A stretch of 64,000 nt of DNA from Trigonopsis variabilis (Eukaryota; Ascomycota; Trigonopsidomycetes; Trigonopsidales; Trigonopsidaceae), in contig PPXM03000004.1 of assembly GCA_003707065.3 (NCBI GenBank), forward strand, positions 310,001-374,000, written 5' to 3'. The translations under genes and the position numbers were made by a program. Below are positions 4,337 through 9,054 of this stretch, piece after piece. The notes under the pieces are model-generated. The model was not told the DNA's origin. It saw only the letters and a program-made list of their open reading frames with translations, and ran no database searches. Each line of letters opens with the position of its first letter. The stretch's first letter is position 1.

Positions 4337-6316
4337 TTATAACTCATCAGTACATTGACACATAGTGGCGTCCATCGAATTTCCCGGACAGAGTCTGGTG
4401 ATGATGGGATTGCTGCAACCTGTGATAGCCATCCAACTGCGTTCAACGCAGCGATCAAGGTATATACGAGCAGAAATAGCTCCATGCCCGGGGATGTCTT
4501 GTATATCTTTCATTCTATTTGGATTTTCCAGCAAGCGTAGAAGTCCAACCCATCCCTCGTAGGGCACTGATTGGATTCGGCTTCCAGAAAGTAAGAACTG
4601 ATTGCCACTACAGATCACAATTGTCGGTGCCACCACGGGGAACTGCCGAGTAAGAGCAGCCAACTGTGGTACTGCCGAGTATTCGCCTTCAGTAAACGGA
4701 TCTTGACACGATGCTGTCTCACATTCTCGATAGTTACCACTCAGGTCTAGAACACCCGTGTTTGGATGAAAGAGAGAAGAAAGACGAGTGGTAAAGAGCT
4801 TGCGATTAACAAACGCGGTAGTTGAAAAGAGAACGTGAGCAGGAAGGTTATAGTAGTGATCCACAATGTAGCGGACAAAAGCTTCCGAGACTGACTTTAC
4901 CGGCTGTTCAGTTATATGAACACCAGAGACATCAGAACCCAGGGCTCGAATAGGGATATCGGAGATTGAGGGGTGAGTGTTAGCGTCGGTGAGGATGTGA
5001 TAAGATACTTTATGGTGCTCCTGCGTGAGGATCTGGGTCATATCGGAAACGAATTCAGCCAGATTGGAACCAAAAGCATTTGAAGGAACAAAGAGACAAA
5101 CCTCCACGGATCCGTCTCGAACGGAAGAAGCTTGTTTGGCGTTGGAGCGCCCAGAAGTGAATGCAACGCCGGCATTTTTAGTTCCACTTCTGGGCTGCGC
5201 TAAAAAAGACATCAGAGCAAAGACTGCAACAATTAACAGTAATGCTTTTCGCCTATTGCGAGGATCGTTCAACCGTAAGTTGGTCAAGGCGTCGTGGATT
5301 TGTTGGTAGCCGAGCTTGTAATAAACTAGACCTGACAATGCAATACCATAGCCGAAGAACTGGGTCATGGTGACTGGAGAGCCCCAAATGACCATGGAGA
5401 AGGCGACGAGAAGGATATCCTTGAGGACACCGCAAAGGGTAAGCACCAAGCTAGAAGTTTTTCCAATGAGGAGGACGGAAGCCACGTTTAATAGAAAGGC
5501 AACACAAGCATTGACCAACAGGATTCCATAGCCGACTCGAGCAAAATCTGCCGCCGTGATGACGGGAAGCTCGACAAAGATAAAGGTGACCGAAAGAAAG
5601 AGAGCGCATACAGGAGCAAAAAAATATAAAGAGACCAGAGGGTTCATTTTGAAATTTGGTCCATTTAGCAATTGTCCCATCAAGGCCAATCTACCAGCCT
5701 CGACCACAATGGCAGATCCCTGGATCATAAAGCCAATCCAGGAAAAGGCCAACTCTCCATAAGAAGCAATCATGATACCAAACACGATAACGCAGACTTT
5801 CAACAGAACCTGGAGGTTGAATTTCTCAGTGCGCAAGGCATAAGAATAAAGGAGGACAGCCACGGGCATAGTAGCCTTAAGCATCTGGATGAACGATACC
5901 GAAAGGTAGATGTATGCCTTATTATTAAGAACCAAAGACAAGGAATAAAAGACGCCAATTGGAGCGATTGCTCGGCCATAGAGAGCTGGGGTCATGTTGA
6001 TTCGATGTCGATCATCTAGCCAATCCGTGGTTCGAGCCATGATCTGGGTGATAATAGTAGCAAAGGTCATGTGCCAAGCAGTCAAGAAGATTGGGAACTT
6101 GAAATTCGCAGAAGACAAGACATATTTATTAAATAAGATGACCGATCCGGAGGAAATGATCCATCCAGCTACATAAACGGCCGAAGGGATAGATCGAGGA
6201 GACGAGACAATCGAAGTGGCCGTGGCAGGAGGAGGAGGAACATCCGTTGAAGGACCAGAACTCATGTCCTCCATAGGAATTGCAGTATCTCCGGCAGGCA
6301 CCTTATCAGAACTCAT
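4337..6316 (-). CDS. nucleotide-sugar/triose-phosphate transporter fused to a DUF3431-like luminal domain
   Basis: A single 659-residue frame contains two modules. Residues ~48-345 form a drug/metabolite-superfamily TPT transporter with about ten helices; diagnostic blocks are SSGSVILFNKYVL, FIQMLKATMPVAVLL and GKTSSLVLTLCGVLKDILL. An extra hydrophobic helix (RRKALLLIVAVFALMSFLAQ, about 357-376) follows. The remaining ~280 residues are hydrophilic and resemble DUF3431 of fungi, with a block around AFVRYIVDHYYNLPAHVLF and a later QFLLSGSRIQSVPYEGW. If the TPT core has the usual even number of helices with both ends cytosolic, the extra helix would place this domain in the Golgi/ER lumen. The substrate is unknown, but the gene is head-to-head with UDP-galactopyranose mutase, suggesting UDP-galactofuranose. 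The transporter call is strong and the DUF3431 call moderate. Confidence 0.85.
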   Translation of the reverse strand: MSSDKVPAGDTAIPMEDMSSGPSTDVPPPPATATSIVSSPRSIPSAVYVAGWIISSGSVILFNKYVLSSANFKFPIFLTAWHMTFATIITQIMARTTDWLDDRHRINMTPALYGRAIAPIGVFYSLSLVLNNKAYIYLSVSFIQMLKATMPVAVLLYSYALRTEKFNLQVLLKVCVIVFGIMIASYGELAFSWIGFMIQGSAIVVEAGRLALMGQLLNGPNFKMNPLVSLYFFAPVCALFLSVTFIFVELPVITAADFARVGYGILLVNACVAFLLNVASVLLIGKTSSLVLTLCGVLKDILLVAFSMVIWGSPVTMTQFFGYGIALSGLVYYKLGYQQIHDALTNLRLNDPRNRRKALLLIVAVFALMSFLAQPRSGTKNAGVAFTSGRSNAKQASSVRDGSVEVCLFVPSNAFGSNLAEFVSDMTQILTQEHHKVSYHILTDANTHPSISDIPIRALGSDVSGVHITEQPVKSVSEAFVRYIVDHYYNLPAHVLFSTTAFVNRKLFTTRLSSLFHPNTGVLDLSGNYRECETASCQDPFTEGEYSAVPQLAALTRQFPVVAPTIVICSGNQFLLSGSRIQSVPYEGWVGLLRLLENPNRMKDIQDIPGHGAISARIYLDRCVERSWMAITGCSNPIITRLCPGNSMDATMCQCTDEL

Positions 6317-7548: not shown

Positions 7549-9054
7549 ATGGCCATTGAAGTTGATACGCTTATTATTGGTGCTGGACCGACTGGTCTTG
7601 GAGCCGCTAAACGCTTGGATCAGTTAGCGCCTAATCATAAATGGCTCTTAGTCGATGCTGCCGCTCAACCAGGCGGATTGGCCTCAACTGACACCACCCC
7701 AGAAGGATTTCTCTTTGATGTCGGTGGCCATGTGATTTTCTCTCACTATCGCTATTTCTCTGAGGTCCTGGATCAGGCTTTACCTGCTGAGGATGACTGG
7801 TATACTCACGAACGCGTGTCGTACGTCCGACTCAAGGGATTATGGGTGCCTTATCCTTTCCAGAACAACATTAGCGTCCTCCCTAAACAAGATCAAGTGG
7901 AGTGCATGAATGGCTTGATCGATGCTGCTCTAGACGCACGAGTCGCCAATACTCGCCCTCAAAATTTTGATGAATGGATTGTTCGAATGATGGGTGAGGG
8001 AATCGCAGATATCTTCATGCGTCCTTATAACTTCAAGGTTTGGGCGGTCCCTACCACCAAAATGCAAGCCGAATGGCTTGGTGAACGCGTTGCTGCTCCC
8101 GATCTCAAGACTGTGACCACTAATATCATCCTCCAAAAGACGGCGGGTAACTGGGGTCCCAACGCGACTTTCCGTTTCCCTGCACGAGATGGAACTGGCG
8201 GAATCTGGATTGCAGTTGCAAAGACCTTGCCTCAGCAAAAGATCCTTTGCAATACAGCTGTTTCTGGTGTCAACAGCAGCACCAAAGAAGCAACCTTGTC
8301 CAATGGCCAGGTCGTCAAATTTAAGAACCTCATTTCTACAGCTCCACTTACTCAATTGCTTCCTATGATCACTCCTGCTCTACCTGATCAAATCAAACTT
8401 GCCAACGAAAACCTCTATCACTCATCCACCCATGTCATCGGTGTTGGAATCCGTGGAGAACGTCCTGATGCCATTGGTGATAAGTGCTGGCTCTATTTCC
8501 CCGAAGATAACTGCCCCTTTTATAGATGCACCATCTTCTCCAACTACTCGCCCTACAACCAGCCTGGTAAATCCGAGAAACTTTCTACCAAGTTCCTCGC
8601 CTCGGGTGCTGCTCCGGCGTCGGCTGAACCTCAAGATGGTCCTTACTGGTCATTAATGTTTGAAGTGTCTCAGTCAACCTACAAGCCGGTTGACGAGGCC
8701 AACATCATCAAAGACACTATTCAAGGTGCCATTAATGCTGGCCTCTTGGAGCCCGATGCTGAAATCGTTTCTACTTATCACCGCAAGTTCGATCTCGGTT
8801 ATCCTACTCCCACTCTTGAACGTGAGACTGCCCTCAAGCCTATCTTGCCTTTTCTCCGTGACAAATTGGGAATCTGGTCCCGTGGCCGATTTGGCTCGTG
8901 GCGTTATGAGGTTGGAAATCAAGACCACTCATTTATGCTTGGTGTTGAGGCCGCTGATAACATTCTCTCTGGCCAGCCCGAGCTTACCCTTGACTATCCC
9001 AACTTTGTCAACAGCCGCGCGAACAACGAGCGGTCGCTTGAGCACACGCCCTAG
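7549..9054 (+). CDS. glfA: UDP-galactopyranose mutase
   Basis: This flavoenzyme interconverts UDP-galactopyranose and UDP-galactofuranose, the only route to galactofuranose-containing wall and membrane glycans in fungi. The intronless 501-residue frame is close to the usual eukaryotic length of ~510. It begins with the FAD-binding Rossmann motif [16 protein letters not shown], followed by [10 protein letters not shown] and [14 protein letters not shown], which carry the conserved glycines and the active-site histidine region. Arg- and Tyr-containing blocks such as YPFQNN and [19 protein letters not shown] near the C-terminus complete the substrate and flavin pocket. The enzyme is expected to be cytosolic, so its product needs a transporter to reach the Golgi; the divergent neighbour at 4337-6316 is the obvious candidate. 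Confidence 0.96.

Follow-up and report, generated by a model that had tools for sequence, protein, structure and literature searches.

Mutase and transporter genes at the locus

We analyzed a 64,000-nucleotide stretch of fungal DNA (contig PPXM03000004.1, positions 310,001 to 374,000; hereafter, the window), in which two divergent genes, each a single open frame, encode a UDP-galactopyranose mutase (UGM) and a putative UDP-galactofuranose (UDP-Galf) transporter that is fused to a C-terminal tail with a predicted GT-A glycosyltransferase fold. The mutase gene (glfA/ugmA-like, 501 amino acids) lies on the forward strand at 7549..9054 and the transporter gene (UgtA/GlfB-like, 659 amino acids) on the reverse strand at 4337..6316, with an intergenic region of 1232 bases from start codon to start codon (6317..7548). 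Judged by its sequence, the product of 7549..9054 is a eukaryotic UGM: it matches the Aspergillus fumigatus UGM structures in the PDB over its full length (E = 2e-237), and H63, F66, R182, and R327 (A. fumigatus numbering, anchored on the GGHVIF segment as chain index plus one; residue roles as given in an excerpt of PMC3893270) are all identical in the alignment.

The transporter matches the Pfam TPT family (E = 5e-23), in agreement with the first-pass annotation of this locus, and its relatives include Aspergillus UDP-Galf transporters. For example, A. fumigatus P0026, a named UDP-Galf transporter, is 55% identical across 52% of the query in the protein search; in the alignment, P0026 and A. 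stella-maris P0060 are 51% and 49% identical, respectively, to the window transporter. Among the 120 relatives listed, every name that specifies a nucleotide sugar specifies UDP-Galf, and the rest have general labels or labels taken from a domain (sugar phosphate/phosphate translocator, TPT, DUF250, hypothetical); names alone are therefore no proof of cargo. These relationships suggest that UDP-Galf is the cargo of the window transporter. In Aspergillus niger, only the ugtA ugtB double deletion is Galf-negative (excerpt of PMC4630932).

The full-length structural model (A5) comprises ten core helices (residues 45–346; 5279..6184), an eleventh transmembrane helix (residues 352–373; 5198..5263; hydropathy peak at 357–375), a probably disordered linker with a predicted local distance difference test score (pLDDT) under 50 (residues 374–400; 5117..5197), and a folded domain (residues 401–659; 4340..5116), all on the reverse strand. 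Foldseek comparisons of this model with TPT 5y78, SLC35B1, Vrg4, and CST gave target-normalized template modeling scores (TM-scores) of 0.64–0.84. A simple hydropathy scan also returned 11 segments, but it missed core helix 10 and counted a tail segment (residues 552–570). By prediction, the ten TPT core helices are therefore followed by an eleventh, as the first-pass annotation had claimed; eleven helices are also reported for A. fumigatus UgtA/GlfB, the sole exception to even helix numbers according to the excerpt of PMC4630932. The window transporter resembles Aspergillus UgtA/GlfB in its TPT core, its 11 predicted helices, and the position of its gene next to the mutase gene (PMC4630932, excerpt), whereas proteins of the UgtA/GlfB type lack a tail domain and end about 23 residues past helix 11 (median of the unfused set).

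Clustering of ugmA and ugtA is conserved among sequenced Pezizomycotina (PMC4630932, excerpt), and the adjacency of glfA and glfB in Aspergillus, pointed out in the first-pass annotation, is thus in print. With the key mutase residues intact beside a UgtA/GlfB-related transporter, the two genes probably form a galactofuranose donor module that makes and imports UDP-Galf. This module itself is ordinary for molds; what sets the locus apart is the tail.

Homology, fold, and topology of the tail

The tail had been described as DUF3431-like. Its own score against DUF3431 (PF11913) is 17 bits (E = 0.005; residues 477–602), below the Pfam gathering cut-off of 25 bits, and when the tail region alone was the protein query, none of 1688 candidates matched at E ≤ 0.001. 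Because the window tail is too divergent for single-sequence searches, we turned to comparisons based on full-length proteins and profiles. A profile built from 12 other fused tails gave it 97 bits, whereas the best-scoring of 5000 shuffles reached 11.3 bits, and a search of the source genome with the Ascobolus fusion P0007 matched the window tail at E = 8.2e-8. Eight fused relatives were themselves scored against DUF3431: five reached 32–41 bits, two reached 23.9 and 24.6 bits, and P0128 had no match. The profile score firmly indicates that the window tail is homologous to the DUF3431-type tails of its fused relatives, and the earlier description stands on that basis. A DUF3431 search of the source genome found no match and also missed the window tail itself, making it uninformative; the window tail, searched against the same genome, matched itself plus one weak match (E = 0.1), and no second convincing copy was seen in this protein search. 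A stand-alone member of the same Pfam family, Aspergillus nidulans ANIA_08443, has a predicted transmembrane region and a large C-terminal part outside, and differs from the window protein in having no joined transporter (PMC5519750, excerpt).

The tail is ordered in two models (A4 and the full-length A5) and is predicted to adopt a GT-A glycosyltransferase fold based on Foldseek and VIA-align, which bears out the glycosyltransferase comparison that had been proposed for it. The Foldseek matches include the galactofuranosyltransferases GlfT2 (4fiy; rank 8, E = 7.5e-4) and AfGfsA (8yrl; rank 24, E = 1.8e-3, query-normalized TM-score 0.25). These share the GT-A fold with the tail, but they are two of many matches of similar strength: B3GalT5, core 2 GlcNAc transferase, ArnC, blood-group transferases, and LH3 rank equally high or higher. 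No sequence match to either was found for the full window protein, AfGfsA being absent from its PDB sequence matches. The best VIA-align rows correspond to LH3 residues 294–511, which we take to be a non-catalytic domain.

Alignment of the first two strands depends on the settings used. MAFFT mostly placed strands 1–2 of the window tail 11–17 columns off the register that we judged right, which was obtained in 22 of 1151 sets (3/81, 15/300, 4/720, and 0/50 for full-length sets). The alignment set behind model A4 was picked for this register, and its strands 1–2 therefore lean on that choice; model A5, not picked for register, shows the same order of elements. Six tail cysteines (C532, C537, C634, C643, C653, and C655) are invariant in a nine-sequence alignment. 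The tail is predicted to be luminal, behind helix 11, with a net positive stretch ahead of that helix and a net negative tail; the luminal placement suggested earlier agrees with this topology prediction.

Distribution of the fusion among fungi

A profile search identified the tail on 18 of the 120 relatives listed (the best of 989 matches); eight of these 18 were already rows of the query alignment. Sixteen carried a precomputed DUF3431 label, and P0009 (23.9 bits) and P0128 (tail cut short) were added from the alignment. Nine of the fused proteins are named by species, namely Tuber brumale, T. magnatum (two proteins), T. indicum, T. aestivum, Choiromyces venosus, Ascobolus immersus, Geopyxis carbonaria, and the chytrid Irineochytrium annulatum; the other nine are unnamed. 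The fusion is thus not peculiar to the window genome, as distant fungi share the architecture, and more divergent fusions could lie below the 120 relatives listed. In these Pezizomycetes and in Irineochytrium, as in the window protein, the tail begins behind helix 11 (scored in 14 of 18). An assembly artifact, or two genes read as one, was ruled out by the single open frame and by the same architecture in other fungi.

These TPT-DUF3431 proteins carry database names only, and our literature search found no description of a TPT-DUF3431 fusion or of any nucleotide sugar transporter-glycosyltransferase fusion. The novelty claimed for the locus therefore holds for the GT-A-fold tail fused to a transporter, as far as we found, and not for the eleventh helix or the pairing with the mutase gene, both of which are already in print (PMC4630932, excerpt, where no tail is mentioned).

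Some species encode more than one transporter of interest. Geopyxis carbonaria has both a fused (P0009) and an unfused (P0151) protein, and Tuber magnatum has two fused transporters, P0005 and P0124. In a Siphonaria sp. protein (P0173), a partial copy of the transporter lies on either side of an unrelated segment; its contig is flagged as unverified contamination, the gene model is apparently faulty, and the protein was discounted as a fusion.

Loss of donor-site-like residues

Among the 18 fused relatives, 12 contain an NxGRE-type loop before the helix that precedes strand 4, and 11 of these, several of them close truffle relatives, combine it with an acidic residue (Asp/Glu) after strand 4. 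P0010 has the loop without the acid, P0001, P0124–P0126, and P0129 have neither, and P0128 lacks the loop. The fold order suggests that the loop and the acid in DUF3431 mark the place where a GT-A enzyme would hold its donor and metal. The window tail has neither: the loop position corresponds to residues 472–476 (4889..4903, reverse strand), where NxGRE is lost, and residue 501 (4814..4816, reverse strand), the position of the acid, is Ala. The helix behind the loop aligned identically in 36 of 36 settings, so the motif loss is independent of the register of strands 1–2. The window tail does retain the cysteines and, close to its C-terminus, an ERSW segment.

With both donor-site-like positions lost, channeling of substrate to an active attached enzyme, as the first-pass annotation had envisaged, is unlikely in the window protein, and the tail itself is unlikely to be catalytically active as an attached transferase. 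The motif-bearing relatives, on the other hand, could be real transporter-transferase fusions.

Evolution of fused and unfused transporters

Fused and unfused proteins are interleaved in trees of the transporter core. The window transporter joins the tail-less Tortispora caseinolytica P0006, its closest relative there, with support of 100/99, and both sit among UgtA-type proteins in trees without an outgroup from another TPT subfamily. The unfused Rhizina P0148 groups with the fused P0001 and P0124 in both core trees. Using the approximately unbiased test (p-AU) on 29 rows, a single fused clade (p-AU = 0.001) and a single unfused clade (p-AU = 0.0007) were both rejected. The pattern on the tree needs at least five changes, a count that is silent on gain versus loss. 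The 29 rows were hand-chosen after earlier trees (the window protein, 10 of 18 fused, and 18 of 155 unfused proteins) and leave out the long-branch P0009 and P0130, which were kept in the other core tree, where deep support is low. Smaller core and tail trees of 12 or 13 rows have mostly unresolved branches and are no proof of co-inheritance.

A helix 11 segment was found in all 128 scorable unfused relatives, followed by 7–41 residues (27 more were unscorable). Given the homology of the tails, their start behind helix 11, and the retention of this helix in unfused relatives, we favor one ancient fusion with repeated loss over repeated gain. If the ancient fusion was repeatedly lost, helix 11 of UgtA/GlfB would be a leftover tether. 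At its C-terminus, Rhizina undulata P0148 has a short stretch that may resemble the first tail strand; this could reflect a vestige of the tail, an error in the gene model, or a chance similarity.

Genome context and search for galactofuranosyltransferases

The source genome comprises 11.35 Mb in 15 contigs, and the window contains long uninterrupted frames (e.g., 2266 amino acids at 52321–59121). Based on these frames and a single transporter tree, the genome may belong to the Saccharomycotina, close to Tortispora and in or near the Trigonopsidales. A search for the HET domain, run without a working control, found no match. A survey of 491 fungi places UDP-Galf synthesis in Ascomycota except Taphrinales and Saccharomycotina (PMC8092308, excerpt); its UDP-Galf-positive Ascomycota would include Tuber, Ascobolus, and Geopyxis, which bears indirectly on whether the fusion accompanies the mutase.

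Galactofuranosyltransferase (Gfs) enzymes are described in excerpts of PMC6949202 and PMC6968653. A PF04646 search of the source genome, run without a working control, found no match. PF02434 gave six matches (Fringe/GT31-like; L006–L011) and PF01762 one match. When compared with PDB sequences, L006 and L007 had no match at E ≤ 0.001; L009 likewise had none at this cut-off and, with the limit relaxed to E ≤ 10, matched just a C1GALT1-type chain (E = 0.58), and L010 matched B3GalT5 (E = 0.0098) and manic fringe (E = 0.47). L006, L007, L008, and L009 (512–578 amino acids) are Fringe/GT31-like proteins with a Cys-rich C-terminal part that, judged by reading, resembles a PAN/Apple domain; L007 and L009 adjoin on contig C9.

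The genome also has further TPT-family matches. Two of them, L002 (1315–2517) and L003 (1471–2385), are tail-less transporter relatives that occupy opposite strands of contig C5, close to 430 and 433 kb and separated by roughly 2 kb. On the tree, L002 (400 amino acids) joins the window and Tortispora proteins with a long branch, and neither gene product has helix 11, judged by reading.

Discussion

We consider it fairly probable (roughly 60%) that the locus encodes a galactofuranose module whose transporter gained a luminal GT-A domain early, that this domain was later lost in several lineages, and that it is non-catalytic here. In such a system, UGM would make UDP-Galf in the cytosol, the transporter would carry it into the Golgi, and helix 11 would anchor the luminal GT-A-fold domain. 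Its attachment to the transporter would date from an early point in the evolution of fungi, and subsequent losses in several lineages would have produced the short, 11-helix UgtA/GlfB. Having apparently lost its donor-site-like residues, the attached domain would most likely work here without catalysis, holding acceptors or true galactofuranosyltransferases near the transporter exit; this docking role is the weakest step, and the tail might alternatively help to retain the transporter in the Golgi.

Several points weigh against this account. The donor-site role of the NxGRE loop and the acid is inferred from fold order, and the Foldseek TM-scores of the tail are low (query-normalized, 0.25–0.38 for the best 50 rows). 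No galactofuranosyltransferase for docking was found: four of the six candidates were compared with the PDB and none matches AfGfsA, which is no evidence of absence. Regarding the ancient fusion, the hydropathy cut-off of 1.6 used to score helix 11 misses 3 of 15 scored fused proteins (P0002, P0004, and P0005), and the search length floor of about 362 amino acids excludes shorter proteins, among them A. niger UgtB (339 amino acids, predicted ten helices), which tilts the count toward helix 11. Instead of being lost, the tail may have been fused repeatedly at one and the same site. Finally, the window tail is the fastest-evolving of the tails (terminal branch of 6.2, versus 1.9 for the core) and may simply be decaying.

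The motif loss and this fast evolution leave a choice, for the window tail, between a non-catalytic role and decay. A functionless leftover, with selection acting on the transporter only, would fit the very long tail branch, the low identity of the tail to five fused relatives (21–29%, versus 54–57% for the core), and the absence of a tail in Tortispora P0006, the closest relative on the tree. We regard decay as unlikely, given that 285 codons have stayed open with no stop, that the six cysteines are kept, that the tail still scores 97 bits against the profile of other tails, and that it forms an ordered fold in two models.

A tail that is an active galactofuranosyltransferase, or another glycosyltransferase using the donor imported by its own transporter, is unlikely. 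GlfT2 and AfGfsA among the structural matches, the retained cysteines and ERSW segment, and the complete motif in 11 of 18 fused relatives would favor it, but the window tail has lost both motif positions, its structural matches are generic for the fold, and the best VIA-align rows fall on the LH3 domain noted above. Another cargo, such as UDP-Gal with an incidental UGM pairing, is very improbable: cargo is unreadable from sequence alone and the genome has other TPT-family matches, including the two on contig C5, but UGM lies next door, such clustering is known in Pezizomycotina (PMC4630932, excerpt), and relatives are named UDP-Galf transporters.

A further reading, less likely than not, builds on the favored history of early fusion and later loss: in the ancestral fungal UDP-Galf transporter, a single polypeptide would have both brought in the donor and handed it on to a luminal GT-A enzyme of its own. 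The motif-bearing form would then survive in truffles, Ascobolus, Geopyxis, and the chytrid, with a dead copy in the window fungus and the tether helix only in Aspergillus-type molds.

Galactofuranose is a sugar of the fungal wall, and only part of its assembly is known. For specialists, the locus is of interest for its fused GT-A tail, for how deeply this tail is spread, and for what it implies about the eleventh helix. If the genome is that of a Saccharomycotina yeast, it would be an exception to the survey reporting no UDP-Galf synthesis there (PMC8092308, excerpt). The history outlined here could explain why UgtA/GlfB has its odd eleventh helix (PMC4630932, excerpt). In a transporter joined to a luminal glycosyltransferase-fold domain, donor import and sugar transfer would become open to study in one polypeptide, and the fusion would directly test whether Golgi transporters feed particular transferases.

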